Below, in pieces: positions 17,161 through 44,289 of a stretch of DNA of 64,000 nt (position 1 is its first letter; each line of letters starts with the position of its first letter). The notes under the pieces are model-generated. The model had not been told where the DNA came from. It saw nothing but the letters and a program-made list of their open reading frames with translations, and ran no database searches. The position numbers and the translations under genes are program-made. Source of the stretch: Tachypleus tridentatus (lineage: Eukaryota; Arthropoda; Merostomata; Xiphosura; Limulidae); the NCBI RefSeq assembly GCF_004210375.1, contig NC_134825.1, positions 41,410,348 through 41,474,347 on the forward strand. Reading direction: 5' to 3'.

Positions 17161-17162
17161 TA

Positions 17163-19594: not shown

Positions 19595-21100
19595 CAGTAA
19601 AATATGTTTAAGGCAGAATTGCACGGACCGAACAAAACTTCTGGCTTAAGCAGTTTTCCAGCTTATACAGTGAGCATGTATTTCCTTAATTATATATAAT
19701 TTTTGAGCAGAACATTATGCTTGCTTGACTCAAGGGAAGTGAGACGTTTGTGGATAAACTTATTATACTGTTTTTGCTATATTTATCAGAATAAGAACAA
19801 AAATAGACATTCAAAATATACATAAATACACAAAACCTTAACTTTATTTGAAGAAAGTGTCCAATTTCAAGTGTTTGTTGTTTTAATGGGCTTTTCATGC
19901 GGTTAAAAGAGAACACCAATTCTATGGCCTTTTCATGAAGTTCATTTTCCCCCTTAATTTTTGCATGCAATTTGATAGTGTTAATATAACTTATCACTTG
20001 CGATGAAGTAGGAATATCTATTTCCTACTATCTTTTCCATTTTGTTCATCTTCTGAATCTCTCGCACTGTTACCATCTTGCGATTCTATTGTAGATTTTA
20101 AATCAATTTCATCAGTTTCTGTTAAAACATTCTTATTCACAAAACTTTCCACATTTACAGAATCATCTGCTTTAATTTTCTCGATCAAAGTTTGGATTTC
20201 ACTAGAATCATCATAACAAATAACTTCTCAAGAATAAATCCACAGTTTCGAAAGCACTTTATTACACATTCATTTTTTATGCATTTGATTGAATGACTTA
20301 AAAATGCAATTGCATCTAACACATCAATTTTCATGGTCATTTCAGATGCTCTCTTACAGTTGACCATGTTTGCAATAATATGGATCAATATTCTGTGTTT
20401 CAATTTTATAAACTGTATAATTCCATTATCTCGTGGTTGTGGAACTGATGTTGTACATGGAGATAGAAAGATTAAACAAACATTTGAAAGTTGAACTTTT
20501 GGGTGACAAGTTGCATTATCTAGGAAAAGTAGAATATTCCTTTTTCTTGTTCCATTCTTTTGTTTCATTTGTTCAAAAATTCCTCAAATATAGCACTTGT
20601 CATCCATGCTTTATTATTCGCTCTTCATTTCACAGGAAGTTGATTCTTCCTTAAATGTTTGAAACAGTGCAGATTTTCACTTTTACCTGTTACCCATGGG
20701 TTCGCTAGTTTTCCATCAGCAAATGCAACCAAAAGTACAGTTAATCATTTATTCGAATGATGACCTTCGGAAAAATGACGGCAGAAAAATTAACAGAATA
20801 TATTTAACCAATACTTGCTGCAACAAAATGTCTGAGAATTTATTAGTATTTAAACACATTATTAATTACATAAGAATTTATAAATATTTAAAGAAATTAT
20901 TAATCAAAAACATTTTTTCTGCCTTACTCAGGTTCTAATTCTACCTGTTGGTAGATGAGGTTGGTAAAAGATAATTTTCTGTCAGCGTTATGCAGGTTCC
21001 ACCATCTAGAGGTCATTTTATAAGAGAAATCTTAAGATAATGCAACAAAATTTTTATATTTTTGGCTTGGATAGATTTCTGGTTTTAGCAGGTTTTAGTG
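19595..21100 (-). mobile_element. pogo/Tigger-like element nested in the hAT
   Basis: The left end CAGTAAAATATGTTTAAGGC and the right end read inward on the minus strand, CACTAAAACCTGCTAAAACC, are matching imperfect inverted repeats of the CAGTAAAACCTG type. TA lies on both sides (19593-19594, 21101-21102), as expected for this superfamily. The length is 1.5 kb and the transposase remnant lies on the minus strand. Confidence 0.85.
19690..20790 (-). pseudogene. Tigger/pogo transposase C-terminal half, broken
   Basis: On the minus strand this reads VTGKSENLHCFKHLRKNQLP, a stop, then NNKAWMTSAIFEEFLNK, then RNILLFLDNATCHPKVQLSN with the LFLDN motif holding the second catalytic aspartate of the pogo DDE domain. 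CLIFLSPCTTSVPQPRDNGI (family FLPPNTTSVLQPMDQGVI, third aspartate kept in PRDNG) follows, and VLDAIAFLSHSIKCIKNE. Further on, HEKAIELVFSFNRMKS and KQQTLEIGHFLQ match the usual Tigger C-terminal tail. The N-terminal DNA-binding domains (CENP-B type) are missing and there are several stops, so this is an internally deleted dead copy. Confidence 0.88.
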
Positions 21101-22500: not shown

Positions 22501-23510
22501 TTTTAAATAATAATAATTTAACTCTTAAAAGAGCACTGAAGAAGTATAGCTACTTTATTTTTTACCTCGTGAAGAATTATTGGAAGAACTTTGGTGTGGG
22601 TATTTGTATTAGATATATAATTACTGGCAGAATCTTAAGTAAGGAAAAAAATATTCTGTCTTATTATTTATATGTGGCTATATTAAAGAATAACACAGAA
22701 GTGAAATTTTAAACTTTGTTTAGGTGATAGGGGAATATTATTTGGAACTTGACTCTTTGAATAATGTCCTCACCTAAACCTGTCTGCCTGAAAATGAAAT
22801 ATCAGCAGTTGTTTTTAATAGAGAGGGTGATTTTAAAAGATGTCTGATTATAGTAATTTAACTATTGCATAACTATTCAATAACTATTGCAGTTCCTTTT
22901 TAAAACTCTCTAAACTTGGTAACAAAATAGGACACTTTTAAAAACTTCAATATCTTGAGTGATAAAAATATTTCAAATAATATTTCAGCCAGTAATAGTG
23001 AATTTCCATGTAAAATTGATGTGGTTATCACAGTGTAAACTGTATGGCTCTTTCTTCACTTCCAGGGCATTATGGGAAGGCACATCTTCAACAAGTTTAC
23101 AAATATTCTTGTTAATTTACTATTGGCAAGATTTAACTGTACTAAATATCAGTGAAACTTATGCCTTTAATGGTAAATGTATAGCATAATTTTAATCTTC
23201 TATCATACAAGTTGTTAATTTGAAAAAGAATAAGAAATGGCTGATAGTTAGTTCAAATAAAATAAAACCTTAACAAAAGTTCAGTCTTAAAATAGACTAA
23301 AACTTTAGTTTTAGAATTTATACTACTCTAAATGACAAAACTTGTTCAAGTTATAAAGAATACACATTTCAAAACCACTGCAGATGGTGGCCTAGTCTTT
23401 CAGGATAAACTAGAAACATGAAAAATCTACTGTGTATATTATGTAAGCAGTATTATGCTAATAACATAGTTTACCTATAATAATAGAAGAGTTTGTCTCT
23501 GCATGTGTAT
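22501..23510. other. PAK pseudogene intron, nothing recognised
   Basis: AT-rich intronic sequence. The open frame 22959-23189 has no recognisable similarity. Confidence 0.45.
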
Positions 23511-24110: not shown

Positions 24111-24384
24111 AGCCTGGCATGTCCAGATGGTTAGGGTGATCAATTTGTAATCTTAAGGTTGTAGGATCAAATCCCTGTTACATCAAACATGCTCATCCTT
24201 TCAGCCATTGGAGCATTTTCAAGTGACTGTCAATCCCACTATTTGTTGCTCAAAGAGTAGCCCAAGAGGTGGTGGTGGGTGGTGATGACTAGCTACCTTC
24301 TCTCCAGTCCCACACTGCCTAATTAGGGGTGGCTAGTGCAGATAGCTTTTCTGTAGCTTTGCATAAAATTCAAGAACCAAACCC
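24111..24384 (+). mobile_element. Thr-like tRNA SINE (family A), full length
   Basis: AGCCTGGCATGTCCAGATGG through ATGCTCATCCTTTCAGCC and GGTGGTGGGTGGTGATGACT to CTGTAGCTTTGCATAAAATT. It is flanked by an 8-bp direct repeat TTTTTGGG (24103-24110 and 24385-24392). It lies in the long intron of the PAK pseudogene. Confidence 0.88.
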
Positions 24385-25134
24385 TTTTTGGGGACCACAC
24401 CATCTTATTATGAGGTAGGGCCCATACCATCCTGCCAGCATTGAAAGTCATGTGTTACCTATTCAATTCTTTTGAGGAGGCCCAGGTACCATGATGTATG
24501 GCTAGTCTATCTCTGTTGTATTGAGTATATCAACCTAATAACCTGAGCATAGCTAGAAGTTTCAATTATATAACAACATCAAATATATATAAAAGACAAG
24601 GTGATTTGCCAACAATCATTTCCAGCAATGGCTTTTATGTTAATTAGCTATTGAAGTATAATTTAATATTACTCTTTATATATGTACTGAAAATATAAAA
24701 TGAAACATATAAATAACAAAACTTGAAACCATTTGCTGATTTGTTTAAAGTTTTATTAAAAATGTTGGTGATATAACAGAAAATACTGAAACAATTTAAG
24801 TTTACTGTTGCACAGGAGCAGTCACTCAAGGTTGTTGGTCTTGACCTGCATAGCCCATGCTTTTCTCAGGGCCAGATTTATGGTTGGTGCTCCAGCAGAT
24901 AGTAAAACAACTAATATATCAACGAATAATGAGATCAGTGCTGGTTATTTCTGCTGTTTATGAATATAAACAAACATTAACATTCCCTTATTCTATCTCA
25001 TGTTTGAATTGTTTTCTCTAAATATATGTAAATATATCCATGTATAAAGAAATAAAAGCAACAAGCACACTGAATTAAAACTATAGTAATATTTAAAAAT
25101 ATTTATCTTTGAAATAAATTCATTTTTCATTCAG
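24385..25134. other. PAK pseudogene intron, nothing recognised
   Basis: AT-rich. It ends with a typical acceptor, CATTTTTCATTCAG, directly before the next exon remnant. Confidence 0.5.
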
Positions 25135-25234
25135 GTTCTTCAAGGAATAAAATTTCTGCACCTCAACAGTGTAACCTATAGGGATATTAAAAGTTTGAAA
25201 ATATTAGTTTGAATGGATTGGAGCATAAAACTTG
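25135..25234 (+). pseudogene. PAK-like kinase pseudogene, exon remnant 2 (catalytic loop)
   Basis: Bounded by TTCAG on the left and by GTAAGT at 25235 on the right, a preserved intron/exon structure. The translation VLQGIKFLHLNSVTYRDIKS follows PAK's catalytic-loop exon (family [20 protein letters not shown]). Then come LKILV, a stop, and MDWSIKLG (family DNILLGMDGSVKL). The HRD motif is YRD, and the asparagine that would help bind magnesium is missing (SLK instead of SDN). Reading frame and exon length are otherwise kept. With exon remnants 1, 3 and 4 it gives the normal order of the kinase domain on the plus strand. Confidence 0.88.
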
Positions 25235-25696
25235 GTAAGTTTTGAAACAAATGATGACTTTGCAACCATGTGTAGTTTTGAATATTTTATTAAGTTTTTT
25301 TTAAACTGTGTCCTTTTCTGTAGATTAGTTGACAACCTGATAACAGATTAGATTTTAGAAAACCTCTCTGTCTGAACTTTAATTTTTCAAGTTTGGTTAT
25401 CAGAAAAACAAGTTAACTACAGATGATATCTTTTTCCAGATTACTTTAATTTGTCCATTGTCCACTGAAAATCAGGACTGTCTAAAACAAATAATAATAG
25501 AAGTCTCTATTTTATATATCTCTAATTTTTAGCCACAGTGAAGAAATTAAGATGAAAATTGATGAAAATGAAATATTTCTGTAGTTAACATGTTTTACAA
25601 TAATTTATAACTTTTACAATATTTCAGCAGTTTACACCATTTAAGTTGTAATGATCAGTAGATTTTATCTTTTATGTATAGATAGTTTCATGGACA

Positions 25697-25781
25697 CTTT
25701 TGTCTCTCACCATCCAGCCAAACTGATCAGTTCTGTTATTCAATAAAATCGTATTTGGCTCTAACTAGTTGGAGACAAAAG
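25697..25781. repeat. 85-bp interrupted inverted repeat
   Basis: CTTTTGTCTC at 25697-25706 is the exact reverse complement of GAGACAAAAG at 25772-25781. Inside, GCCAAA and TTTGGC form a second pairing arm. The inverted copy of this locus near 38765-38795 has only one such arm (CCAGCCAAACTGATGAGAGA). Confidence 0.6.
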
Positions 25782-27203
25782 ATAATTTGAAATACTGTTT
25801 CTCACACACCTGGATAAAATAATAATGTTTAAAAAAAATCTGTACTTACTCGTTCTTATAATAGCTTTTAAACCTGTTGGATTTTAATAATGTTTTCCAG
25901 CATTCAGTGTTTACACCATGATTTTTGTTATTAAAATCATTTATATCATTCTTAAGTAAACATAAACATATATTATGAAGGTGTTGAAACCTTACATGAT
26001 AGCTTTAATTTCCTTGATTGTATACAAATCATATTTACTCAGAAATATAAAATATTTACATGTGCATCAGTGTGTTTCCAATTTTATGTTCAGTACAAAA
26101 TATGTACATTTGATAATTTGATACATCTTCCTTATTGTTTAAAGATAATATATATCCATTCTTGATTTATCTTAAATACTTGCTGTTATATTTGATATTT
26201 TATGCTGTGACTCTTTATTTCTTTCCTTTTTACTTTAATATCAGTTTTTAAATATTATTGAAATATAAACTGTAACCAAAAATATTTTATCTAGTTGTGT
26301 GAAACATTGAATATCTTTTCATCTTAATTTGATTTTTCTTGGTAAACTTACACTATATATTGAGACATAATCACCTACATGACATAGCTATGTATTATTC
26401 TGTAAATGAATATGACAATAATTTGACATGAAAACCAAGTTTTACATATGCTTATTACCAATAATACAATCATGTACCAAGTAACTTGCTTGCCCCCTTT
26501 AATGAAGTCATAGATTACTTGAAGGTATATAAGGTTAATGATGACTTGAAGATTACCTAAGAAGGTTGAAACATTATTTTCTGCTTTATTAGTAAAAATG
26601 TTTACATCCATAGCAACCATCCAGAGATACATATTGTGTGTTTAGTTGGATTTTATATTCTTTTAACATCAGTAACATCAAAATGACAGTTTATTACAAA
26701 TTATTTGTTCTGAAACTTTGCAAAAAACTTGTACAAATTAGCAGACTCTGACAAATTTTATTTGTGTATTTGAATTATTAATCATTTTTATTTTACAATC
26801 AAACTTTGTAATTGAAGCAGAACAAATCAAAATTAGAGTTAACTATTTGAATTTGTCTTTTTATTAATTTATGTGTAACAAACGATAATAAAATTTTATT
26901 TTGTTATAAATTATAAGTCTGAATATCTAAAAGATAGTTTTGCTACATAGTTGATTTTACAGGAGGAGAATGGACAAAAAGAATGTAAATTTAACACACT
27001 CTCAAAAAAGGATATTATACAACTGGATAAAGTTAAAGTAGTTTCAACAATCTTAAACTAACAAACTGACAACAAAACTGTGATAATTATTAATATGCCT
27101 TAAGTTAATTTTGTAAGGCTAACTTGAAATTATCTCCAAGTCATTTCTGTCTTCATTTTTTCTCACACGAAAACTATTATTCTTGATTCTTTCCATCATG
27201 TAG

Positions 27204-27400
27204 CTGACTTTGGATTATGGGCTGTAAAAACACCAGAGTGAAGTAAACAAACAACAATGGCTGGCACTTTTTGCTGGATGGCTCCAGAAATTGTTACAAT
27301 GAAATAATATGGGCCTGAGGTTGGCATCTGGTCATTTGAAATTATGACTGTTGAGATGATTGACGGTGAACCTCCTTATTTTATTACTGATCCTCTCATG
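27204..27400 (+). pseudogene. PAK-like kinase pseudogene, exon remnant 3 (activation loop)
   Basis: A CATCATGTAG acceptor precedes the exon and a GTTAGT donor follows it. Translation: ADFGLWAVKTPE (DFG motif kept), stop, SKQTTMAGTFCWMAPEIVTM (family [20 protein letters not shown]; the threonine and the APE motif are kept), K, stop, [20 protein letters not shown] and [11 protein letters not shown]. In intact kinases the sequence is YGPKVDIWSLG; here the structural aspartate of DIWS is glycine. Two in-frame stops and no frameshift. The length of 66 codons agrees with one PAK exon. It cannot encode a working kinase. Confidence 0.9.
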
Positions 27401-27871
27401 GTTAGTGTTTGCAAGCAATATTTACAGCCAAGAAGAAAGATAAGATTGAATTTTCAACTTTCTCCTTATTTGAATGTCTTCCCTTTTTTAATTTTTGTAT
27501 GTAAATACTTTGAGATGATAGTTGAAAATTTTGATTTAATAAATCTAAGAGTAAAATCTAATTTTACTGGATGAAATTAAAGTATTTCATAATCAGTTTC
27601 AAGAACCTTCAAGAATTTGTGTGAATTAATGCTTTGTTTTAGTTAAAGACAAAGGTTTCCATAATAATTTTTCCCATAGAAATGATCACAACACCCAAAT
27701 TCTTAAAAGTTACATTTTTCTAAAATTCAAAACACAATTGTTTTCTTTGGTCAAAGATGTCTTTCAGCAACTACAGGGAATAGCTATAATGATAAAGATG
27801 AAAACAAGACTTTGCACATTACTCACTCATACAGATATACATATAGTCATGAAGTCCCACTCCTTTATCAG

Positions 27872-28000
27872 GTATTTGATCTCACAGCCAGAAATGGGAA
27901 GCTGGACATTAAAAAAAAAAAAATGTTTCTCCCGTCTATCTCTAAACACACTTCCACAAAATCATACCATGCCTTTAAGAGTTCAGAAGCTGTGAATCGT
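27872..28000 (+). pseudogene. PAK-like kinase pseudogene, exon remnant 4 (C-lobe)
   Basis: A TTTATCAG acceptor is followed by VFDLTARNGKLDIKKK, which aligns with PAK ALYLIATNGKPEIKEK. The rest of the exon is scrambled. After a run of 13 A the sequence drifts, and the segment that should code for ASELLK lies in inverted orientation (27964-27994). The same exon is better preserved in the inverted copy at 36903-36760, and comparison with that copy made the assignment possible. Confidence 0.75.
27964..27994. other. 31-bp microinversion inside PAK exon remnant 4
   Basis: These 31 bases match plus-strand 36760-36790 in direct orientation (28 of 31 identical), whereas the flanking sequences of the two loci match in inverted orientation. 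Confidence 0.7.
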
Positions 28001-28115
28001 TTGTGTACTGTTATTTCACTAAGCTATTTTGTTTTCCTTTGAACCTATTATCCTAATGAGACACACCAAAAAGCAATATTATTAAATGTAAGAATTCATT
28101 GTTGTGCATGGCTGT

Positions 28116-28454
28116 GCTCATCTTACAGTTTGAGTACTTCATGATTTACTATTTGTTTATTTTTCTTATATTCATTATTCCCATACAATATCTTATTTTA
28201 CTGGTGAAAAAAAATGATATAATTCTTGTATCCCTCACCATCTTTTGTGTAAATGTTTGTACTTTAAAAATTTTTATTACATTTAGGATCCATCCATTTC
28301 TATTTACTTTAGCTGATATCTAACTGAAACTTGTTTTCAGATACATTAAATTTCAATGCATTGACCATTCACAAAAGCCACCTGAGTTTTACTATATTTT
28401 GTGTTTATACATAAATATATATATATTCTATAAATATTTCAATAGAAAATGCCC
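28116..28454. other. No feature recognised
   Basis: AT-rich sequence after the last PAK homology. The open frame 28099-28323 has no recognisable similarity. Confidence 0.45.
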
Positions 28455-28899
28455 CTTGATGTGGATTCCTGTACATGCTGAGGGGACCTCCCAAGGAAGG
28501 TTCTGTTCTCTCAGTTTACTTTCTCTGGGATCTAAACATCCACCTGCATGCCTGCCATGCATGGTGACCCATGAAGGGGTGGAGAGGATCCTAGTGGTTG
28601 AAGGGTCCAACTCCAACACACCACTTTGGCCTTGAATTCCTGTAGACAGGCAGTCTTGGGGTGGCCCCCCCAAGATCAATTGGGTAGTCAGTTTGGGTCA
28701 GATTCAACTGAATGTCAGCATAGGATGACCTCAACAGGTATGATGGGCATTATGTCTGATACTGGTGTTTCGATATAGTGCTCACGAAACCCTGTTGTCA
28801 TTACAGTGACTTTATATGGCACTGTAGTGTGTCCCCTCATAGGACTTCATGATGAGTGGGGTCAGTGGGCATTGAAATATTCTTTTTTTTTTTATTATT

Positions 28900-29159
28900 A
28901 TGGATACCCTTCAAATAAGATCAACCAAGCATGACAGCATAGAGAAAAATATGAGTACTGGCACACGACAGCTCATCGATGACTCTGTATGGTCAAACTT
29001 GCAACTTGAATCTGTCCTGCAATTTTTAATTATACATTTTTTGACTGAAAAACCCTCAGGACAGATATCTCCATTTCTTATTCAGAAGGGTTTAGAAGGG
29101 CTTGCTTACTCACCTAAATTGGTGAAAAACGTTACGGTCTGGGGACATTTTAGTGGAAA
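28900..29159 (+). pseudogene. LINE ORF1 (gag-like nucleic-acid-binding protein), N-terminal part
   Basis: The first half of the ORF1 protein of a jockey-group LINE, which coats the element's RNA. It starts at the ATG at 28900. Recognisable blocks are FLIIHFLTEKPSGQISPFLI and QKGLEGLAYSPKLVK. A one-base frameshift near 29130 then moves the frame: the correct continuation is LRSGDILVE, which reads straight across the hAT target duplication into the second part at 31414. The minus-strand LINE at 58.8-59.1 kb contains the same block as KLRSGNIVVEIS. The gene is broken by the shift and by the 2.25-kb hAT insertion. Confidence 0.82.
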
Positions 29160-31413
29160 CAAGGGCGTAGCCAGGGGAGTTGGGGGTTAATCCCCCACGG
29201 ACCTAAACTTTTTATACAAGTTCAGTTGCTACCTGTGAAGTTTCATAAAGATTCGTGATTGCATGGCAGATAATTTCACACAACAAATGGTCATATGCAA
29301 ATTTCTGATTGAACACTTTTAATACAGCAAGTTTTGTCAGAACTAGAAAAATGCAATCGAATATCTATGAAAGGCTCAAACGCCTATTCGTTCTTGCCAG
29401 GACATCTACAACACAGTTTGGTTCAACTTTAATATCACAGTGAATGTGTAATGAGGCCAAGACCATTCAATTGATCTTCAGTGGTGATATTTCTCAAATA
29501 CGTTTTCAGTCTCTTGAGAGTTGAAAACGAATGCTCCACTGAGCTTGTTGACACAGGCAATGTGGCAAATACTTTCAACAGTCTAGAAATGACTGGGAAC
29601 ATTTCTGCATTGCACATTGCATATGTATCTATGACATTTTTTGGTCTGTTGTTCGCAAGTGATTTGTACCAAACCCTAAGTAGTAAAGTAGTAAAGCTAG
29701 TAAAGTGCTGTCAATGTAGGCCTTGTATATATTGACCAACTCTTTAATTTGGTCACATTGTTGTGCTGTAGGTTTTGACCATTCTGTGGTAGATCCTGAT
29801 GGTTGTAGACACATGAAGTTTGTAAGGAGAGTTTTGTGACTGGATAGATGGTAACATATTTGTGAAAGAAAGTGATCAACAAATGGTACAAATACAACAA
29901 TATGAAAGTACTCCTCAGGGCCAGTGGTTTGTGGGTTAGTACGGTACATCTGTCTTTTAGCCTGCCTTGACATTATGATGTCACTTTGAAGCTCACTACA
30001 CAGAGTTTGAGCCTCACAGTTTGAGTTTGCTGCAGTAAGTTGCACAGAGGTAAACTAAAGGAAAACAATTTAGCAATGGTAAGTGGAGTGATGATGAATT
30101 CTGGCTGTGTTATAGAATACAATTGATTGGCTTACATGGCAGAATCTCTGTCTTGTGAACCTGATATGATCTCAAGGGCATCTGCAACAGCATGGATTAA
30201 TTCTAGAAAGACAATGACTGAGTCATGACTCTCAACCCACCGGGTGGGGCAGAGACCGTTCAAACTTTTTTTTCTATTCAGGTGCTTTACTCTCCACCGA
30301 AAGAGCCAAAACGTGCTTTTGTTTGGGTGTATTGAGAAAGGTTTCAATGCTAGAAATTACTCACATGCAATTTCACACAGGAACTTCTTTACAAGCATCA
30401 AAAATTGCCAAGTTTAGGGAATGGGCACTGCAGTGTACATTGGGTGCAAGTGGGAATTGATCAGTTATGTGTCTCTGGACACCATTGAATTTCCCACTCA
30501 TAGAGGTAGCACCATCGTACCCTTGTCCTCGCAGGTAAGCCATGTCAATACCATATTTTGTCAGATTGATTATGACAACATCAGCCAAGTTTCTGCCTGT
30601 CACATCATAAAGAGGTATAAATTGCAAAAAATCTTCTCTCGTTGCAACAGAGTTGTCATTGGCATGCAAATATCTAACACTGTTCAATGCCTGAAATATC
30701 TGTTGTTTCATCAGTTAATATTGAGAAACACTCTGCAGTATTAACCCTTTTGACCAAAGCATCAAGAACATGAGTATTACAGGCATTGATGATTTCATTT
30801 TGAATTTGAGGACTCAGAAACATAGCATTCCTCTTTGTACTTTTAAGGCTTGCTGAAAGCTTGACATCACCTTTTGCCCTGTAGTGCAAAATTGCCCAAA
30901 AATTCCCATCATTATTGATGGGCTCCTCATCAGTTTCACCAACAAACATTGTGACCAGAATTATATTTTCCCCTCAAAGCTAAATCCTGTCTCCCACACA
31001 GCAATACAGTATCAATAATAGGCATTAAATATTTCCAGTTCTGTTCAATTTCTTGCTTGTAAGTTGCATCAAGCTGCAAGTGCACAGATGAACTTGTGTT
31101 TATAACCTGTAGAAAATTGTTAGCTTTTTTTTTTTGCTGGGCCTGATAACTTTTAGTTATATATTATATATACAGGCCTATATATTTATTTATGATTAAA
31201 AAATAAGACAAATACTACAGTGTGCCATTCTGAAATTTGCTAAAAGGGTGGTCTAAGAATGCATAATTCAGGCTTTTCTTTTATGTTTTTATTAAAAAAT
31301 TTCATGGGGGGCATGCCCCCAGACCCCCAAGCATGGTTTTGCATCTATGGAGCTTGCATCAAGCACTCAAACTAAAAAACTCCCACCAATGGCCATTTCT
31401 GGCTACACCCCTG
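29160..31413 (-). mobile_element. hAT element with 8-bp target duplication, inserted in LINE ORF1
   Basis: The left end is CAAGGGCGTAGCCA and the right end TGGCTACACCCCTG, inverted repeats matching at 12 of 14 positions. AGTGGAAA is duplicated exactly on both sides (29152-29159 and 31414-31421), the 8-bp duplication typical of hAT. Just inside the ends are GGGGTTAATCCCCCACGG and GGGGGGCATGCCCCCAGACC segments. The transposase is on the minus strand. Confidence 0.95.
29430..31090 (-). pseudogene. hAT transposase of ZMYM1/THAP12-like type, broken
   Basis: Minus strand, in order: NWKYLMPIIDTVLLCGRQDL, ALRGKYNSG (the start of the DUF4371-like region), EEPINNDGNFWAILHYRAKG, NEIINACNTHVLDALVKRVN, TAECFSILTDETTDISGIEQ (first catalytic aspartate in DETTD), YDVTGRNLADVVIINLTKYG, YLRGQGYDGATSMSGKFNGV (second catalytic region), NVHCSAHSLNLAIFDACKEV, LCPTRWVESHDSVIVFLELI. 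At the C-terminus is the dimerisation block FATLPVSTSSVEHSFSTLKR. The parts lie in several frames. No N-terminal TTF-type zinc finger is visible in this copy. The zinc finger half of a similar protein is found at 39.6-40.3 kb. Confidence 0.9.
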
Positions 31414-31945
31414 AGTGGAAACATCTTCATCACAACATTCAAAACTCCTCTTGAAGTCGAAGGCCATTGGGGATATACTCATTGATGTTACTCTTCTTTC
31501 TACTTTGAATTATTCTAGAAGAGTTATAGTTGAGAGGGATTTAAAGACCATTTCAGAGTCGGAGATCCTACCAGGTTTCACCAGTCAAGGTGTTACAGCC
31601 GTGCACCAAATTGTTACTCTTAAAGATGGGATTATGGAGCCAACAAATGTTCTAATATTAACATTTACAACATCACGTCCTCCTACTACAATCAAGGCAG
31701 GATATCTGAATTGTAAGGCATGGCCTTATATCCCTAATCCTGTTAGATGTTTTCACTGTCAACGATTTGGTCACTCGAAAACGTCTTGCCGTGGTTCCTT
31801 AACATGTGTCCATTGTGCTGGTAAAGACCATGATGCTTTTGAATGCCAACTAGAATCACATTGTATTAGCTGTAACAGTCCACATCCTTCCTATTTTACT
31901 TCTTGCCCTAAATGGGTGGAAGAGAAAGTAGTACAACATCTCAAG
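31414..31945 (+). pseudogene. LINE ORF1, C-terminal part with CCHC zinc knuckles
   Basis: Continues ORF1 after the hAT: HSKLLLKSKAIGDILIDVTL, LNYSRRVIVERDLKTISESE, then VLILTFTTSRPPTTIKAGYL and PYIPNPVRCFHCQRFGHSKT. The zinc knuckles are CFHCQRFGHSKTSC, CVHCAGKDHDAFEC and CISCNSPHPSYFTSC, three in a row as in jockey-group ORF1 proteins. From 31414 the frame stays open to 32032, but after EEKVVQHLKKV (about 31945) it runs into the tandem repeat and is no longer ORF1-like. This is the best preserved coding stretch in the window. Confidence 0.88.
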
Positions 31946-31949
31946 AAAG

Positions 31950-32520
31950 TTCAGATTTATAATATGTTTGTAACAAGTTCCAAGACATATCAATATCGTA
32001 AATACCCCATAGATGATTGTAAGGTATATTAAATACTGTAAAAGCATATCCATTATTGGGCATCTATGGTTACAGCTCTTAGGATACTCAGGATAACTGA
32101 CAAAATACAGCAATTTAAATATAAAATCTCACCTTTAATTCCTCAAGTTGTAGAAGACATGATCCAAGACATATCAATGTCATAATACCCCATTGATGAT
32201 TATAAGGTATATTACGTACTGTTGAAGCATGTCCACTACCGGGCATCTATGGTTACAGCTCTTAGGATACTCAGAATAACTGAGAAAATCTCACCTTTAA
32301 TTCCTCAAGTATTATAACACATACTTCAAGACATATCAATGTCGTGAATACCCCATAGATGATCATAATGTTTCTCAAGTACTCTGAAAGGATATCCACA
32401 ATTGAGCATTGATGTTTGCAGCTCTCAGGATAACTGACAAAATAAAGTGATTCAAGGATGTCAGATTTGTAATATGTTCATAACAAGTTGAATAACTTGT
32501 TAATTTAGTATATATACCAA
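31950..32520 (+). repeat. Tandem repeat, period about 165-185 bp, three units and a partial one
   Basis: CCAAGACATATCAAT opens units at about 31980, 32165 and 32330. Each continues with TACCCCAT(A/T)GATGAT, GGGCATCTATGGTTACAGCT or a variant, and CTCACCTTTAATTCCTCAAG (first two units). The segment CAGATTTRTAATATGTTYRT occurs before the first unit and again near 32465. It directly abuts the end of LINE ORF1. Confidence 0.85.
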
Positions 32521-33066
32521 CAATAGACATAAACATCTTTATAAACATTTGTAGGACCAACAACTGCAATTACATTAGTGTAAATATACAGTAAATGAGT
32601 AATTGCAAATTATGCAAAGTAACACAAACCAAGCTAATAGTTTAAAATGAAACTTATAACTTACCCAAACATGTTAATTTTGGAAATATCACAAATAATA
32701 ACAACACCAAATTGTATGGCAACCATCAAGCACAGATTGCTTTTAATAAAAAAACTTGTTAGAAGATGTTCTGAAAAGCGAAAACATTTTCATAAAAGAG
32801 ATTACTTCATAAAACTTTTAATACACCATTTGCACTTTAGATCGATTAGAGTTAATTTTTTTGGTTTCTAAGGTTTTTACCCTTAGTAACGTGACGTGCC
32901 TACAATATCAGATAGATAATTGTTGTTTGAAGAGAGACAGTTGTATTTTTCTGTATTAATGGCAATAACAACAACATATAGCTCTGCACTTAACTTGTGA
33001 CAAACAACAATATATAGCTCTACTCTGAACTTGTGACAATATATTACAATTTACAACTTCTAAAAC
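32521..33066. other. No feature recognised
   Basis: AT-rich. The open frame 32647-32871 has no recognisable similarity. Confidence 0.45.
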
Positions 33067-34600
33067 AGTGGTTCTTAACCTTTTTCATCGTCTTACCCCC
33101 TGAGACTCTCCAGGGTATTACCGTGACCCCTATAATAAGTTTTGTAATAGTGAACTTTGCGTAAAAATAGAATAAAACAAAACCATATAAAGATTCTAAT
33201 TTATTGAAAATGTTACAAATAAATGACCTTGAGAAATGCTACAATTGCTAAACAAATGCAAAATCCATGGAATTATGGAACATCATACGAAACCTACTTA
33301 TTCACTCATTGTGAGGGTTGATATTGTTTTGCAGCCATAAGTACATCAAGGTGAGGAGCAGTGCTCGAAAGACAACACCTCATGTCGGCGTCAAATCACA
33401 AGTCTATTGCATGCCGTTGTTTTCAGATCCATCATTGCTGAGAATCCAGCTTTGCAGTGATAGGTCGAGGGGGACTATATCAACATACTCAGTGCATGCA
33501 TTGAAAGAAGAGGATAGTCGTCTTTCAGTTTTGCCCAAAATGCAGGAAGCTCTTGTTCAGAAAAATCGACTTTCATCCGAGTATCCTCACAAATTTGAAG
33601 AAATTCTACCTTGGCAGCAACATCAGTATCACTGATGGTACTCTCCTTCACTGAAAAGGGTCTGAAGATCCACACATCAGTACAACAGTCATCAAATCCT
33701 GGGAAGTAACTTTCGATACCGTCACTCACTGCCAGAAGATGAGCTAAGATCTCTTTACGGAAACTGCATTCAGCTTCTGGCATAGAAGCCAGGATAGTTG
33801 TCATCTGAGGGAAGAACGTTGTGTCACTGTCCTGAACTCGTTTCTGATGAAGTTGAATTTTACACCTGAACGCTGCCACTTTGTCACAGCAGTCACAACT
33901 TGCAGCAGAATATTCTCGCTCATGTCCGAGATACGACATTTGATTGTGTCATTTGACAGGGAAATTGTCCTCAACTGGTGTGCCTGCTGTTCTCCAAGAA
34001 TTGCCTTCGTTGCTTCCAGAATGCAAGGCTTAATCAGATCTTCACCAATGGTATGAAGCTTCTTGATCTGTACAATTTTTCGAGCAATTCTGTATGAAGC
34101 CTCCTATGTTGCTTTGTTCTGACGAGCAAAGTGACCAGTGAAGTCCATGCCATTGGCCTTTGGAGAAGCTTCTTTTCGCTTGAAATAGTCCAAGCTTTTG
34201 TCCACCAGTTGGCTGTGAAGAGACTCAAAATGCACCTTCAGATTGCTTGGCTTCATGCTTTCATGACTCAAAACCTTTCCGCAAACGACACATTGCGGCT
34301 TGACCACAGAGTTCTGAACAATACTTGTGAAACCCATCTTGAGAAAGGCTTCATTGTATGTATGCTTCTTTGCAGACATATTGCGAACAGAAAACAGAAG
34401 TGTATCAAATTTCGTTTCAGAAACTTGCAGACATGAAGATAAAATAAGTAATGAATAATAAATGACAATAGTAAAATAAATAACTTCACTCGATCTTGTG
34501 TAGACAAAAATAGTGCTTTTTGTGTGAAAAGTGTCTTGTGTGTCTGTAGTATGGCACAGCGCTATACCCCTCAAGAAGTCTCGGATAGAATTTTAATGCT
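33067..34600 (-). mobile_element. ZBED-type hAT element, one terminus recognised
   Basis: CAGTGGTTCTTAACCTTTTT at 33067 is a typical hAT (Charlie-like) end, 3' to a minus-strand hAT ORF at 33340-34379. The opposite end was not found, so the upper border is approximate. Confidence 0.65.
33340..34379 (-). pseudogene. hAT transposase of ZBED5/SCAND3 type, catalytic core missing
   Basis: The ATG at 34379 opens MSAKKHTYNEAFLKMGFTSI, then a BED finger (CVVCGKVLSHESMKPSNLKV with the later HFESLHSQLVDKSLDYFKRK). One stop codon near 34107 lies before EASYRIARKIVQIKKLHTIG, EDLIKPCILEATKAILGEQQ and RISDMSENILLQVV. The next recognisable block, in another frame, is already C-terminal: DKVAAFRCKIQLHQKRVQDS, DDCCTDVWIFRPFSV, FWAKLKDDYPLLSMHAL, and after a stop CKAGFSAMMDLKTTACNRLV (family CEAGFSALTVIKTKYRNRL). 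About 250 residues with the catalytic acids are missing. In ZBED5-like host proteins derived from such transposons the full length is about 650-700 residues. Confidence 0.85.
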
Positions 34601-34697
34601 GATTAGTAGGGATGAATCACATCGTTATTCTGACATGGACTCTAATTCGAATTTAGTATACGATGGTGAGGCACTTGCTCTGGACAGCGAATTTTAG
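34551..34697 (+). other. Small ORF of 48 codons, possibly a transposase N-terminus
   Basis: MAQRYTPQEVSDRILMLISR, then DESHRYSDMDSNSNLVYDGE and a stop. The acidic, serine-rich start recalls piggyBac transposase N-termini (SDSD clusters), but it is too short to assign. It starts just beyond the hAT relic, on the opposite strand. Confidence 0.2.
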
Positions 34698-35706
34698 AGG
34701 TGCAAAAAATTGTTGAATAAAAAATTATAAAACAGTGAAAAAAATGTCGTGACCTCAAAAATATACAAGTGGTATTTAATAAAGTATTGAGGTGAAAGTT
34801 GACTTCATAGAAGTAAAAGCCAGTGCTTCAGAGTCGTGAAGTCAAGACAATTTTATAGGAGTCGGAGTCGATATTTCACGAATCAATTATATTTTATTCA
34901 TGAAATATTTTTTTTATTTTATAACTTAAATAAAAAGTCAATATATTTACATTATATATATATATATATATAGTATGGTAAAATTTTATCTGTCTTTCTA
35001 ATTTAATACAAGTCTTGTGGACAAATTCTCTTTGTAATTGCTGAGGTTTATCAGGCAAATTTTTGATGGTCAAATCAATTAAGGCAGAAATATCCTGATA
35101 TTCAATTATCTCAAAACCTAATTATCTTGAGGACGAATTCCCTTGAGACCGAACTGTTCAGAGGCCAAATTATCTTGCCAAAAAATTTCCTCTTCCAGTA
35201 TATTTATTTATATATATGTATAAAGAGAAAATACATTAAATTCGATGAAAACTTTGATATTTAAATTTTAAGTTTGATGTATTAATATTATATAGTTAAA
35301 AAAGTTAGGCAATTCAAAATGTTGTAATATATGAAATTTTTACTCAAAATTAGACAGGTGATTGCGCAACAAGCATCTCGACGCGGTTCAACAGCCGCAC
35401 TTCAGCATGTTTCTCAAACCCAGGTAAAGAACAACTGTTCTAAAAACAGCACTCTAAAATTCAATTCAAAACGACGCTATTATGAAAGAATAGTTAAAGC
35501 CAAACAAAATATATTAAACGAAAGATTGAACAATCGCCAACATTCAAACACTGTAAATGTAGTTCTTAGAATTATACTCATGCGCCTTTGTTGAAAACTG
35601 TATGATTTGACGAAGTTTGTGAGCTCGAAACATCATCTTTTTTTTCAAAATAAAATGTATAGAAATCTAGTGATTGTTCAACCTTTCATTTAATTTTCAA
35701 AGTATT
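34698..35706. other. No gene; contains a (TA)n microsatellite at 34953-34972
   Basis: AT-rich. The open frame 35331-35594 is positively charged but has no recognisable similarity. Confidence 0.45.
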
Positions 35707-35973
35707 GGTTTGAATTTCGCGTAAAGCTACATGAAGGCTATCTGCGCTAGCTGTCCTTCATGTAGTAGTGTAAGACTAGAGGAAAGGCAGCTAGTTATCA
35801 CCACCCACCGCCAACTCTTGGGCTACTCTTTTATCAACGAATAGTGGGATTCACCCTTACATTATAACACCCCTCATAGGTGAAAAGGCAAGCATGTTTG
35901 ATGTGAGGGGGATTTGAACCTGTGACCCTTGGATTAGGAATTGAGTGCCTTTACCACCTGTCTATGCTAGGTC
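35707..35973 (-). mobile_element. Thr-like tRNA SINE (family A), full length
   Basis: GTTTGAATTTCGCGTAAAGC on the left through ACCACCCACCGCCAACTCTT to the head complement (CCACCTGTCTATGCTAGGTC) on the right. More diverged than the copy at 42534. Confidence 0.85.
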
Positions 35974-36111
35974 TTTACAAATTATAGTTGAAAGCAGAAA
36001 CATAAGTTTTGAAAGTTGCAAACTTGTGTAAAAGCATTCGTGAGAATAAATTTTTTAATCAGAGTAATGACTGACCTCTGATCACATAAACAGTTGTGAT
36101 TGTTTATTTGT

Positions 36112-36172
36112 AGTTAAGTACAATGGGTTATCTGTGCTTTGCCCACCACGGTAACAAAACCTGGTTTGTAGC
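36112..36172 (-). mobile_element. Val-like tRNA SINE (family B), fragment
   Basis: AGTTAAGTACAATGGGTTAT, then CTGTGCTTTGCCCACCACGG and ACCTGGTTTGTAGCGTT correspond to tail and second half of the head; the first half of the head is missing. Confidence 0.7.
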
Positions 36173-36235
36173 GTTCATGATTATTACAATTAATGTATTA
36201 CAATAAACCAATTTGAAGTAAAAAGTGTTAAAGAG

Positions 36236-36300
36236 TTAACCTGAAGATGAGCTAAGAAGGTCAAAACGTTGTCCTGTAGTTTATTTTAATTAAAGTTTTA
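36236..36300 (+). repeat. Dispersed repeat with GGTCAAAACGTTGT core
   Basis: GTTAACCTGAAGATGAGCTA then AGAAGGTCAAAACGTTGTCC. The same core is seen inverted near 44683-44725 (ACAACGTTTCGACCTTCC) and diverged near 26535-26565. Its class is unknown to me. Confidence 0.5.
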
Positions 36301-36639
36301 ATACCCATATCAGCAGTATTGAGAATAGATTTGTAGCATTGTAAGTCAGCAGACATACAGCTAACAAGTAAAATAAAATCTGTAGAAAAATAACACATAT
36401 CGATATATATGCTAATTTGTATCGCTTTTTTCATGAGCAAAGAAAGTTTCAAACTTAAATATGGATATAATCGAGATATGTTACCCACAAATTACACTAC
36501 ATTTAGGATTTAAGTCAGCATTTAAAATTAAAAGCGTGTTCAAACCCAGAGACACCATATCCATCTCAATTCTCTCATGTGTGGTATGCAGATACATTTG
36601 TGGTAACTGTAGTTACCAGAATTGTTAAAACTTACACAT

Positions 36640-38890
36640 CAGATGAACAGCGATGCATAACAGTGAATTTTTATATTTACTGATATTATTTTTCTTGCGT
36701 TTCATTGGGATGATATGTTTAGAGTAAAACAAAATAGCGTAGCAAAATAATAATAATTTATACCATACCTTTAACAGTTCAGAGGCTGTGTATTATTTAT
36801 CTAGATCACTTCTAAACATTTGTCTTGGAAATCTTGGAAGACTGCAAACATATTGTTTTTCTTTAATGTCTGGCTTTCCATTTGTTACTGTAAGATACAA
36901 TGCCTGAATAAGAAGTGTAAATTGGTGACTAAATAATTCTGATAATATAAAAGATACATAAGTATTAAACAATTTAACCAATACTGTCACTAACATTATC
37001 ATTACAGTGGTAACATACCTTATGTACAAAATATACAAACTTTCTACTTCATGTACTATCACTGGATTCCTGACCCTTGATAACCATGATATCAGTATGT
37101 ACAAACATTTGGGAAGCCCACACAAATAATGTCTAAATTGTTCCAAAATTCCATTGCAAAAATAATTAATCCCATAATCTACAGCAAGAACTGTGAACTT
37201 ACAGCAAATTTGAACAAACAGTGCTCAAAATATGGTAGGAGAAATTCATTTGTGGCAAAAAGAAAAGAAACCTTACAAGGTTTGTTCTCAATTCCTTGTA
37301 ACGACAAACAAATACAAGTGTGTATAAAAAGTTGAATGTAGTAAACACTGTAACATAGCTTATCATTTTTCAGCAAGCTATATTGAAGATGGTAAAATAT
37401 TAGACATAAAAATTTATAAAACTCAAACATTTAAGAAAAAATTAAGTTACAGAGAAAACAGATGGAGTCAGTTTATAAAAGCAAACAAAAATGATGGGAT
37501 AATGCAAAGATTGTAACAATTTCAGACCATATGTAATTGTAGCAAAGCTATGTTATTATTTAAAGTTGTGGGTTCATTTATAAAATTTTGAACTTGATAA
37601 ACTTCTATACCTAATATTTTACACTATTATTTGTTGCTATAAACACACTGGTCAAATATTGATTTATTGTTCTATTGTTCATCAATACTTTCAATACATC
37701 TATGTGTATGAATATTATATAAAGCCTTGTTTTTATCTTTATTATAGCTTTACTATATAGTTGCTGGAAAACATTTTAGATGAAGCATAGAACTATGTAT
37801 TCAAGTAAAAAATATAGCTTTTAAGAATCTGGGTATTGTCAAACAATGATAACGTTTATGAGCAATATTAATGTGGAACCATTTTTGTTTATAAAGCAAG
37901 GCAAATAAATATCTTGAAGTTGCTGAAATTTTATCCAAAGGAACATTCCATTAGATTTATTAATCAATTTTGATTTTATTTTTGCCCCAGATTTTATAAT
38001 CTTGTTTGTAATTCAATTGTTTTATAAATTTTAAAACCTAAACATTTACAAAAAAAGAAATGGGGAGACATTCAAATAATGAGAAAGTTGAAATTCTATT
38101 TACTCCTACTCTTTGGCTGTAATACTGGTTGGCAGCACCTACCCTGAGAGGATTATCATTGCCACAAATCTGTTCATTTTATATATGTTTGTTGCTTAGT
38201 TCCAATGTTAATATTGTATTAAAAAAATGTAAAATTCACTGCAATACACAATTTATTTTATAATTTCCAAATATCTAAAGCCAACAGTCATAAATACAGT
38301 TTGAGAGTGACATTATTTTATTTTTGCTGTGAAACTTCCTTTCTTCCTCGTATTGATTATACATTTCAACCAGAAATAATTCTTGTTTATACATCTTCAA
38401 ATAATCTATAATAATTTATTTCAACAAAGTGTATTGGCAGGTCATTTGGCATGTAATTGTATTTTTGCTAATAAGCATATGTAAAACCTGGTTTCTTTGT
38501 CAAGTTATGACAGTACAATACATAGCTATGTGATGTAATTGGTTTTACTTCATTGCATATCATAAGTTTACCACAAAATAATCAATTCAAGATTGAACAA
38601 TACTCAATGATTTACACAAATGAAAAAGAGCTTACTTTTTATTAATGTTTAAAAATTTAAAATTGAAGTAAAAATGAAGACATAAAGAACAACAGCATAA
38701 AATAAAAATAAAAATATAACAGCAACTATTTAAATAAATAAAAGAAAAGCATGGATATATATTCCAGCCAAACTGATGAGAGACAAAGTTTTGATGAAAG
38801 ATTATATTCACATGTAATGCAGTAATTTAAATTTTGTAGGCCACTGAAATATTGTAAGTTAAACATTGATATGGAACAAGTAAATTGCAG
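36640..38890 (-). repeat. Segmental duplication, copy 2 (inverted relative to 25600-28115)
   Basis: Read on the minus strand it follows copy 1 from its intron (near 25620) to beyond the last exon remnant (near 28115). Examples are ACAATATTTCAG, ATATCCAT, TTGCTGTTATATTT, ATAAGCATATGTAAAACC and CTATTTTGTTTT. Exon remnant 3 of copy 1 has no convincing counterpart here; only GAAATTGTTACAAT (near 37530) remains as a possible trace. Confidence 0.72.
36760..36903 (-). pseudogene. PAK-like kinase pseudogene (second copy), C-lobe exon
   Basis: On the minus strand a TATTCAG acceptor precedes ALYLTVTNGKPDIKEK, very close to PAK ALYLIATNGKPEIKEK. A frameshift leads to VFQDFQDKCLEV (family VFQDFLDKCLEVD), and a further shift and a stop precede YTASELLK (family RATASELLKH). 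So the exon is recognisable over its whole length but disrupted twice. It is the counterpart of exon remnant 4 at 27872. In the other copy the ASELLK segment is inverted; here it keeps the coding orientation. No intact PAK exons lie nearby. Confidence 0.88.
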
Positions 38891-39626
38891 ATGTTTTGTC
38901 TTCTCCATTTGGAACTACACGAGTACAAAGGCATGTGTCTCAAAACTTACTTACTTTAACATTACCACCCATTTCAAGTAAAATAAAGTAAAAACACTGA
39001 AAATCTGGAATTCATTATATTAATGAAAACATGGAGGAGTTTGTATTATTTAATGTTTAGAAACCATTAAAAATGGAGAGGCTTTTTCAAAAATAATGTG
39101 TTCATAATCTGTAGTTCTGGAGTTGAGAACTTTAAATATTCCTAAAGTATGAGGTGTGTGGTTGTTCTAAACGTGGAGTTAAATACAACTTAATTAGGTG
39201 GATTATTAGCTTATATCTGCTTCTTGCTGATATTTTCATGTGCCACTTATCTATATATATGGATTGCCTGCTACATACCATCAGTTAGAGAAAATATGCC
39301 ATCATCATAAAACAAAAAAACACAGAATAATGCATCATATTTTGTTTTCTTTATTAAATTGTTCTTTGTATTATTGTTGAAACTTAACATCACTTATGTG
39401 TATGAACACTAGTTTTATTTTGTATGGAAACAGTTTTAATTATATCTTATCTAAGCCTAAATGAACTGAAAGAGTGTTCATGTGCAATTCAACTTTTATA
39501 CAAACTTCAATAGTAGTTAATAATAATTTGGTGACCTTTTAGTTGAAAACACCAGATTTTATAAGTTAGGTAAATAAAGTTTGTTTTTTATGATATAATG
39601 AAATGGGCCTTAACTAAGATAAATGT
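38891..39626. other. No feature recognised
   Basis: AT-rich. I looked for the catalytic-loop exon of the second PAK copy here and did not find it. Confidence 0.45.
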
Positions 39627-39639
39627 TCATTTTGTGAAA

Positions 39640-40267
39640 GAAAGTTGTTGCATAGTCGTTATATACATAGCTACACAAATGGCTATCTGTGTCACTAGAG
39701 TTACATCAAGTGACCTTCTGGAGATATAGCGAATCTGTCCTGAGAGGAGGATTGGTGTTCTTTGAATTTCTGTTTTGCCTTTTTCCAGTTGCAAAAACCG
39801 GTGGATATGAAGGTATACTCCACTGGCTTCTCCAATTTCCTTGTAAAAAGGCTCTATTTTCTGCCTTGGCACAAAGAAAGCATATGACATTTTGGGTCTG
39901 ATTGTCGAAGTGCAGCCATGGGAACTCATCAGACCACGTGCCCTGGAAGTTGATATTTTGCTTTCTGTCGTGGTATTAGTTGTGCGTCTGGATGATATGG
40001 CTTTCCACATTGTATCTGTGGAGTGTCTAATTTTTAATTACCGCACAAACTTGTTTCACAACTATCTGGTGGTTCATGATGTGCAATAGTTGCACAAGTA
40101 TTTTCAGACTCGTCCTCTGATGAACATGGTATTTCCTCTGTATGGCAAGTTTCTATTCCTTTGCTTGAGGTTGTTGGATTACCTGCATCTGCATCGTCAC
40201 TTGTAGTACTAGTAACTGGCTTGCAGAACTGTCTAATATCGGAAAGTTTCAGACGCTTGCTTGTCAT
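39640..40267 (-). pseudogene. hAT transposase N-terminus with TTF-type zinc finger
   Basis: The ATG at 40267 starts MTSKRLKLSDIRQFCKPVTS, followed by an acidic, serine/threonine-rich linker and CETSLCGN. After a stop the same protein goes on with KLDTPQ, QGTWSDEFPWLHFDNQTQ and NVICFLCAKAENRAFLQGN. The W..EFPWL and C..C pattern is the TTF-type zinc finger at the N-terminus of ZMYM1/THAP12-like hAT transposases. After a frameshift, VFATGKRQNRNSKNTN resembles the next block (family FISTGFCNWKKA), and similarity ends. It matches the missing N-terminal part of the element at 29160, but sits 9 kb away as a separate insertion. Confidence 0.72.
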
Positions 40268-41380
40268 AATTGGAATCTGTTTCCCAGATGACTCAACATG
40301 CTGAAATACAGTCTTTATTGAAAAACTCTAACGTACAACGAACGAAGATAGAACAGAATGGAAGTAGGACTGAACTGTACAATGTATTTAAGTCGAACGC
40401 GCGAACCTCACAGTGACTACCGAGCCGACTGACCGCCTGGGCATCGCTGGACAATAATGTGTGCTAGTTATAACACAAGTAATTGCAAGTTTCTCGAAAA
40501 ATACTTAAACAATCACAAATATATTATATTCCTGTTAAAGCTCATCAAAAGGCAAACACGTTGTGATATAATGTCTATAAGCACGTCTATTAAATAAAAA
40601 CAACTAAACAAAAACTAGCAATACAATTCGAGTAGAGGTTTCAGGCCGTTGAAATCGCTCCTTTTGTGTTCTAATTATAGAAGAAAATACAATATTTTTG
40701 CTCTCTATAACAAGTGAATATATTGTTCTTTTACCATAAAGCACCAGCACTTTATTAGAGGGCAGTGATAATCTGAAATTTCATGGATTAATGAGGGCCA
40801 CAAACACAGGTCTAATTAGCTCTGTTGTAAAATCGATGCTAAGACTAAAGGGAGCGTAGGGGGGGAGGTGATGTATGGCGCGTCTGGATCCGAGCGGCCC
40901 GAACCTGTCGTTAACTGTACACTAAACGTACACTATGGTCAGCGACTTCGGCAGCTAAGAAGAGTAAGGCGTTCGACAATTAAACCGACTAGACATGCAT
41001 AAGAACAAATGGCGTAAGAAAATTGCACAATATACACATAAGATTGATGCAGCTACAAATGGCCTGCCAGATCTAGATCACAGGAGTTTACGCTTGGCAG
41101 TATATTTTCGAATTTCATGCTCTGTTCAATTTGTTGTGATGAAAATTTTACTTAATCTTGCACTACGTACAAGACGTAGGTAGATTATGTGATAGTGCTT
41201 GCAAGCCTTGCATGTATACTTAGGCTTACTGACTGATACTTACGAACTATCGCTGAGATCGAAAAGCTTAGAAGCAGGCCTATATTAAAGATGTACATTT
41301 AGGCTACTGAAAAAGCCTACATCTAAGTTTAATTATGTAATTCGATTGGTACGAACACAAAAATCACAAGAACAAATAAA
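40268..41380. promoter_or_regulatory. hAT 5' leader, CpG-richer, possible transposase promoter
   Basis: On the minus strand CGACTTAAATACATTGTACA followed by TTCAGTC lies about 110-130 bases before the ORF ATG at 40267, a plausible TATA-like box and initiator. The stretch has many CpG sites (CGCGCGAACC, GGCGCGTC, GAGCGGCC), unlike the surroundings. No transcription data support it. Confidence 0.3.
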
Positions 41381-41534
41381 TTTATGAGCCTGTGATACAA
41401 TAAAGCAATTCAACTGACCAAGCTGTAGGGAGGGATGATTGTATGCACCGTCCCCACCTAAAATGAAGGGAGGATGTATCCCCATCCCCAGGATCTACGC
41501 CCCTGCTGGTAGTAATTCTACGATACCCAATGTG

Positions 41535-41804
41535 TTTGTTTTTATTACGCGCAAAGCTACACAAGAATTGTATGCGCTAGCCGTCCCTAATTTAGCAGTG
41601 AAAGACTAGAGGATAATCAGTTAGTCATCATCATCCACCGCCAACTCTTGGGCTTCTCTTTTACCAACGAATAGTGGAATTGACCGTCGTATTATAACAC
41701 CCCCACTGCTGAAAGGGCGAGCATGTTTGGTGCGACGGGCATTCAAACTCGCGATTTTCAGATTACGAGTCAAGCGTCTTAACCACCTGGCCATGTTGGG
41801 CCCA
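41535..41804 (-). mobile_element. Thr-like tRNA SINE (family A), full length
   Basis: Tail complement at the left (TTTATTACGCGCAAAGCTA) and head complement at the right (CCACCTGGCCATGTTGGGCC). Flanked by ACCCAATGTG (41525-41534) and ACCCGATGTG (41805-41814), a 10-bp target duplication with one mismatch. Confidence 0.9.
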
Positions 41805-41814
41805 ACCCGATGTG

Positions 41815-42533
41815 TATATTGTATGATCACACTAATGACCAAAACGTTGTATCTGTTTTAAATAATAATCTTCGTTACCGTAAAACCTGTTACATGTAAT
41901 AAAATAACACTTAACCAATAAGTAAACTTAAAACGAAACTATTAAAGTGAGATTTGTTTCTGAAGTATTTTGATACACGTTTTCACATGCTAATACAATT
42001 TTGTGTCTTTCAATAAATGCATAAGATAAAGATACGTATATTAATTATTTTGTCCCAACAGCTTTCATTAACTCTTTTCTTTTCTAAAAAAATATTTTAA
42101 AATATTTGAAGTTTGATATTTTAAACCTGTTCGACACTTCAAGCAATACATTAGTTAAAGGACTATGCTAGAAATCTCCAGGTTCGGAAGCAACCGTTCC
42201 TAATTTACAACTGGTGATTAGATGTGGGTGGGAGAGTGAATCATTCAGCAGCACCCACTGCATACCTTTAACGGAATGTACCGACACTGAACTACTGCTT
42301 TTGTAAAATATTCACTGCTGAAAGTATAAATATTGTATGACAACATTGTGTGTTCTCGGACATTGGACTTTCCAATATGCAACCTGACATACTAAATGCC
42401 ACGTCTTCTGTGGAATGAAAATAATTTGCATTTTTTAAGTAGAATAATGTTTGCTTTAAAGGAATGTGAAAGGAATATGTAACGGCTTTACCGTTGTGCA
42501 TTTATTTTAATGCCTAAGCATGTTTTTGTAGGG
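41815..42533. other. No gene recognised
   Basis: AT-rich. A stretch at 42170-42280 (GATGTGGGTGGGAGAG, GCAGCACCCACTGCATACC) resembles other repeat middles but I could not match it to a family. Confidence 0.4.
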
Positions 42534-42810
42534 GCCCGGCATGGCCAGGTGGTAAGGGAAGTCGACTCGTAATCCGAGGGTCGCGAGTTCGAATTCTTGT
42601 CACACCAAACATGCTCGCCCTTTCAGCCGTGGGGGCGTTATAATGTGACGGTCAATCCCACTATTCGTTGGTAAAAGGGTAGCCCAAGAGTTGGCGGTGG
42701 GTAGTGATGACTAGCTGCCTTCCCTCTAGTTTTACACTGCTACATTAGGGACGGCTAGCGCAGATACCCGTCGTGTAGCTTTGCACGAAATTCAAAACAA
42801 ACCAAACCAA
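42534..42810 (+). mobile_element. Thr-like tRNA SINE (family A), best-preserved copy
   Basis: GCCCGGCATGGCCAGGTGG, anticodon loop CTCGTAA (CGT, Thr), B-box-like GGGTCGCGAGTTCGAATTC, body CTCGCCCTTTCAGCCGTGGG, GTCAATCCCACTATTCGTTG, AGTTGGCGGTGGGTAGTGAT, and tail CGTGTAGCTTTGCACGAAAT then TCAAAACAAACCAAACC. I used this copy as the reference for family A. It looks like a SINE, not a functional tRNA, because the acceptor stem does not close. Confidence 0.93.
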
Positions 42811-44068: not shown

Positions 44069-44078
44069 CAAGTGAGTC

Positions 44079-44279: not shown

Positions 44280-44289
44280 CAAGTGATTC

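Follow-up and report, generated by a model that had tools for sequence, protein, structure and literature searches.

A convergent pair of decayed PAK copies in Tachypleus tridentatus, probably left by an old, partial, inverted duplication

How does a genome come to hold two broken copies of one kinase gene that face each other across a few kilobases? The question is raised by a stretch of 64,000 nucleotides from the horseshoe crab Tachypleus tridentatus (assembly GCF_004210375.1, contig NC_134825.1, positions 41,410,348–41,474,347 of the forward strand), hereafter the window. A first reading of its letters—the original prediction—had noticed the 3′ part of a PAK pseudogene on the plus strand (copy A) and, inverted, on the minus strand (copy B), and had offered either an expanded, then abandoned kinase family or one duplication of a dead locus as explanation. 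The two arms (Table 1) are very probably an ordinary pair of non-processed pseudogenes—an old, partial and inverted duplication of a group I PAK locus, which decayed and was infilled by transposons. Neither copy is able to act as a kinase now.

Comparison of the window with itself by BLAST yields 49 non-self pairs at an expect value (E) of at most 1e-5, each counted once. Most of these look like dispersed repeats, chiefly of a type that is about 270 bp long and resembles a short interspersed nuclear element (SINE-like), or like tandem copies of local extent. The pairs with the appearance of a duplicated locus form three inverted, collinear blocks. The same three pieces are recovered in matching order by nhmmer, starting from either arm. 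A single local alignment of the inverted arms scores 407.7, compared with 195.3 for the direct-strand control and with a mean of 215.7 and a maximum of 237.1 for 30 dinucleotide shuffles. The inverted diagonal proposed between 25.6–28.1 and 38.9–36.6 kb is thus present, and each of the two intron strings quoted in its favor has a single occurrence per strand, with the order preserved. Its extent was drawn slightly short at the 5′ side: a remnant of the exon for kinase subdomain VIb, including its donor, prolongs the homology to about 25200–25277 in A and 38985–38913 in B. The score of this remnant is reached by seven of 2000 random window segments, among which segments overlapping A or B were kept. 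The spacer between the block ends measures 8,517 bp, in agreement with the roughly 8.5 kb first given.

The arms are broken by indels, with about 860 bp in A (26533–27389) where B has about 230 bp, and about 760 bp in B (37694–36935) where A has almost none. As an end-to-end alignment is misregistered over the unmatched parts, the pair was compared by blocks, and neither 25120–25760 (52.5% overall; the short piece at 25.6/38.9 kb excepted) nor the part beyond 28.12 kb (50.4%) is counted as homology. Upstream of the VIb remnant, the pair is not traceable by blastn of 1–25.6 kb against 36–64 kb reversed, with 13 repeat intervals masked; matches of 1–108 to 62849–62742 and of 13.2 kb to 36.1 and 43.6 kb are read as dispersed repeats, and the rest are at chance level. 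Copy A, on the plus strand, reads rightward up to 28.1 kb, and copy B runs on the minus strand from 39.0 to 36.6 kb. Hence, the 3′ ends face each other, and the pair is tail to tail, or convergent—not head to head, as had been stated.

What gene the arms derive from can be read from the exon remnants, which a tblastn search with human PAK1 as the query helped to place. When the exons of copy A are joined, their best matches are PAK1/2/3 chains (E 9e-24), compared with 5e-18 for PAK4 and 7e-11 for STK24 among the best 60 of 456 matches; in a second search, the corresponding values are 3e-32, 4e-25, and 7e-16 among the best 60 of 1407. Within the best 60, the rank order is PAK1/2/3, then PAK4–7, then other STE20-type kinases. 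Copy A is a pseudogene of group I PAK type that has kept introns, and remnants of its exons are spread from 16.96 to about 28.0 kb. A CRIB (p21-binding) region was not detected in the window by tblastn with human PAK1—the best overlapping match, at E 0.42, is at chance level—and may lie outside it. Copy B is only the 3′ part of PAK, with most of the activation-loop exon gone. Its ALYL exon, whose ALYLTVTNGKPDIKEK reads from 36903 on the minus strand, is weak when searched alone (best E 0.47), with 17 of 19 matches being PAK1, PAK2, or PAK3 chains; it aligns with its copy A counterpart at E 4e-6 and at the equivalent place in the block order.

The open reading frame (ORF) through the catalytic domain is broken by stops in the exons of both copies, so that the locus was rightly called a dead PAK gene. 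The damage differs between the copies, again as predicted: the stop in the VIb exon of A is not found in B, which has a frame change and a stop of its own and has mostly lost the activation-loop exon. Judged by our own reading against the letters of PAK, the frame in the ALYL exon of B appears to be lost after KEK. Beyond a short stub, the activation-loop exon is unsupported in B, where the best local score of 15.0 is reached by 68 of 980 random segments. Copy A in turn carries a 49-bp piece that scores 29.0 against B in the opposite sense and 8.5 in the same sense; none of about 5000 random segments reaches the score of the flipped piece, and 34 bp of it are also found in the finer block comparison at E 5e-7. 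This local inversion is assigned to A because B holds the PAK orientation at that place.

Splice dinucleotides and homologous introns are retained in both copies at the exon bounds examined. With acceptors and donors kept there, neither copy looks like a retrocopy, and the homologous intron blocks bear out that the duplication included introns. The locus shares with non-processed (duplicated) pseudogenes the kept introns and splice sites, the in-frame stops, the frame changes, and the loss of exons, and differs from them in nothing of kind—only in consisting of two convergent copies 8.5 kb apart, one of which has a 49-bp inversion. With group I PAK genes of the PAK1/2/3 type, it shares the exon sequence and an exon order that matches the protein; unlike these genes, both copies are dead, and CRIB is not detected in the window.

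How old the pair is, and whether its exons were ever protected, can be approached by the divergence of the arms. Over the three strongest blocks, 70.9% of 910 columns are identical, giving a K80 distance of 0.37, which is likely a lower bound, as only the alignable parts count. Pairwise differences among the six SINE-like copies of the window range from 9 to 29% (15 pairs); by this yardstick, the duplication should be of roughly the same age as the oldest of them, or of greater age. Among comparable coding columns, 82 of 114 are identical (20/34 in the VIb exon, 34/45, and 28/35 in the flipped piece, the last counted by eye), compared with 633 of 903 for the introns. With the comparable exon columns this close to the introns in identity, change since the duplication would mostly have been drift. 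This near-equality suits a duplication that took place when the gene died or close to that time, or an early loss of both copies, and one copy may have stayed alive for some time after the duplication. Protection of the exons in both copies following the duplication is not clearly indicated, a comparison to which 114 columns lend little power.

Table 1. Features of the PAK pseudogene pair and of the neighboring repeats (window positions)
Feature	Coordinates	Strand	Evidence or remarks
Copy A arm, 3′ part of PAK pseudogene A with introns	25200–28123	+	Self-BLAST, nhmmer, block alignment
Copy B arm, partial PAK pseudogene	36641–38985	−	Self-BLAST, nhmmer, block alignment
Block 1	A 26147–26532 / B 38763–38387	A +, B −	69.5% identity, E 2e-40 (self-BLAST)
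Block 2	A 27390–27839 / B 38153–37695	A +, B −	66.5% identity, E 8e-21 (self-BLAST)
Block 3	A 28011–28123 / B 36750–36641	A +, B −	78.8% identity, E 4e-18 (self-BLAST)
Exon block, weaker	A 27841–27928 / B 36934–36846		75%, E 2e-11 (finer comparison)
Weak block	A 25578–25647 / B 38891–38824		71% over 70 columns, E 0.001
A upstream kinase exon, N-lobe	16957–17181	+	tblastn E 1e-12; in-frame stops; no counterpart found in B
Probable A exon remnant, query residues 346–369	22739–22810	+	E 0.19, weak alone; strand and order right; one stop
A exon with subdomain VIb (YRDIK)	25132–25242	+	In-frame stop; GTAAGT donor kept
A activation-loop/APE exon	27204–27400	+	Two in-frame stops; mostly missing from B
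A next exon, VFDLTARNGKLDIK... (ALYL), with decayed continuation	27872–28007	+	AG acceptor kept
Local inversion in A, 49 bp: exon end and donor region on opposite strand	27959–28007	−	39/49 identical to B 36803–36755
B remnant of VIb exon	38945–38985	−	GTAAGT donor kept; without the stop of copy A
B stub of activation-loop exon (NDNPLR-like)	38143–38160	−	Followed by GT
B exon, ALYLTVTNGKPDIKEK... (ALYL)	36769–36903	−	Stop; AG acceptor and GT donor kept
LINE-like 5′ region and gag-like ORF1 piece	28458–32032	+	Interrupted by hAT1
hAT1, dead	29160–31413	−	Terminal inverted repeats; exact 8-bp target duplication AGTGGAAA; DUF4371 and Dimer_Tnp_hAT fragments
hAT3, hAT-like	33066–35437		Similar ends; exact 8-bp target duplication TTCTAAAA
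SINE-like repeat copy in spacer	35705–35981		
hAT2 remnant beside B	39627–41505	−	One hAT-like end at 41505
SINE-like family, six copies	1529–1785, 24113–24383, 35705–35981, 41534–41803, 42525–42805, 44076–44282		71–91% alike pairwise

By which route, then, did the two copies arise? In the course that we favor, a genomic—not retroposed—segment with the 3′ portion of a group I PAK gene would have been copied once, locally and in inverted orientation, probably through faulty replication or break repair, leaving two convergent, tail-to-tail copies. The source might have been dead, dying, or soon dead at that time, and insertions of long interspersed nuclear elements (LINEs), hAT elements, and SINEs would later have forced the arms apart. 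Some points weigh against this course. No more than 114 coding columns can be compared, and of the residues of human PAK1 in the ALYL exon, B has 8 of 16 and A 4 of 16 (by eye), so that copy B could have been under selection for a while. A dispersed element that carries this piece of PAK might also lie behind the pair. Some observations would suit a small PAK family that expanded locally while functional, with both copies serving for some time before both died: the lesions are not the same in the two copies, B lacks the stop that A has in VIb, the ALYL exon of B seems nearer to PAK than that of A, and the end of the exon, where it lies in the flipped piece, is a little better preserved (28/35) than the introns. 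Set against this are the coding columns in total, which are about as alike as the introns, and the minus strand beyond copy B, where tblastn with human PAK1 finds no convincing upstream PAK exon within the window and blastn shows no pair of exons apart from a chance-level VIb match. The window holds two copies and no sign of a long use of both; an expanded, then abandoned family is hence not borne out, and we regard it as unlikely.

A carrier has to be considered as well, since copy B adjoins a one-ended hAT remnant and lies near further hATs; a transposon might have captured the 3′ segment of PAK and delivered copy B as in Pack-type transduplication. Yet hAT1 and hAT3 each have two ends of their own with target duplications that exclude B, and on the plus strand between 27.5 and 41.3 kb, no partner end of hAT2 is found on the far side of B, save that of hAT1 itself. 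Terminal repeats and a target duplication enclosing a captured segment are thus not seen, and adjacent inverted copies require no carrier, which makes such a capture quite improbable. Inverted repeats are, as a matter of general knowledge, also a trap for genome assembly; a palindromic misjoin would, however, yield near-identical arms, whereas the aligned blocks here are about 29% different and have differing indels. We find an artefact of this kind scarcely credible. The reading that we prefer remains that a group I PAK locus was duplicated locally and in inverted orientation. The significance of the pair beyond this genome is little, but it offers a clean example of a dying gene that was duplicated nearby and inverted, one in which the nesting of transposons and a small inversion in place put the events in order, and the signs of a "kinase family" in the raw sequence are fossils here, not genes.

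Might the pair nevertheless have gained a use as RNA? If read through from one side, convergent arms could form, or could once have formed, double-stranded RNA and thereby small RNAs directed at the parental PAK. In all three stretches tested, the duplex energies of the paired arms lie below those of all 50 shuffles; such a low energy is expected of any inverted pair that is 71–80% alike. The longest exact run common to the arms is 19 nt, the longest predicted helix including G–U pairs has 27 pairs, and neither a long near-perfect duplex nor kept pairing is found. Transitions are evenly divided, with 69 wobble-compatible and 69 incompatible ones (138 in four blocks); one block of the four leans to wobble-compatible changes, 11:5, as do eight control pairs of transposable elements, 160:121. 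Scans for tRNAs and against Rfam gave no features. The pair resembles hairpin RNA and pseudogene-derived small interfering RNA loci in having inverted pseudogene arms that would be able to pair in one transcript, and differs from them in that its arms are 71% alike, lie 8.5 kb apart, share exact runs of at most 19 nt, and lack a wobble bias. With no bias to wobble-compatible changes, and with a duplex energy that the similarity of an inverted pair leads one to expect, a function as an RNA hairpin is rejected, and we hold it to be extremely unlikely.

The spacer is largely transposon sequence, and it is from these insertions that the arms can be taken to have been closer once and pushed apart later. 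Next to the 3′ end of copy A lies a piece which we take to be LINE-like, and the 5′ region of which recurs at 59.1–59.6 kb with 72% identity. Its ORF at 31415–32032 has zinc-knuckle-like motifs and matches no family in Pfam. When hAT1 is removed together with one copy of its target duplication, the open frame reads through the join in the LINE-like ORF. Two ORFs tested in hAT3 are without a Pfam match at the curated cut-off. Those of hAT2 have no Pfam match either and are, by eye, the N-terminal part of a transposase; the single end of this remnant may mark a deletion or breakpoint. The SINE-like family may be akin to repeats of horseshoe crabs; strings from it gave no match in papers, viral contigs, or genome contigs.

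Local tandem copies, about 77% alike and offset by about 184 and 346 bp, stand at 31973–32455, where the LINE-like piece ends. Elsewhere in the window, fragments of DNA transposons lie on the minus strand at 20185–20583 (DDE_1 match) and 9798–10079 (Mos1-type HTH_48 match), and 17404–18087 on the plus strand appears Tc1-like by eye, with Pfam matches below the cut-off only. Strong AT skew of opposite sign is seen at 14001–16000 (−0.28) and over 46001–50000 (+0.25 and +0.20).

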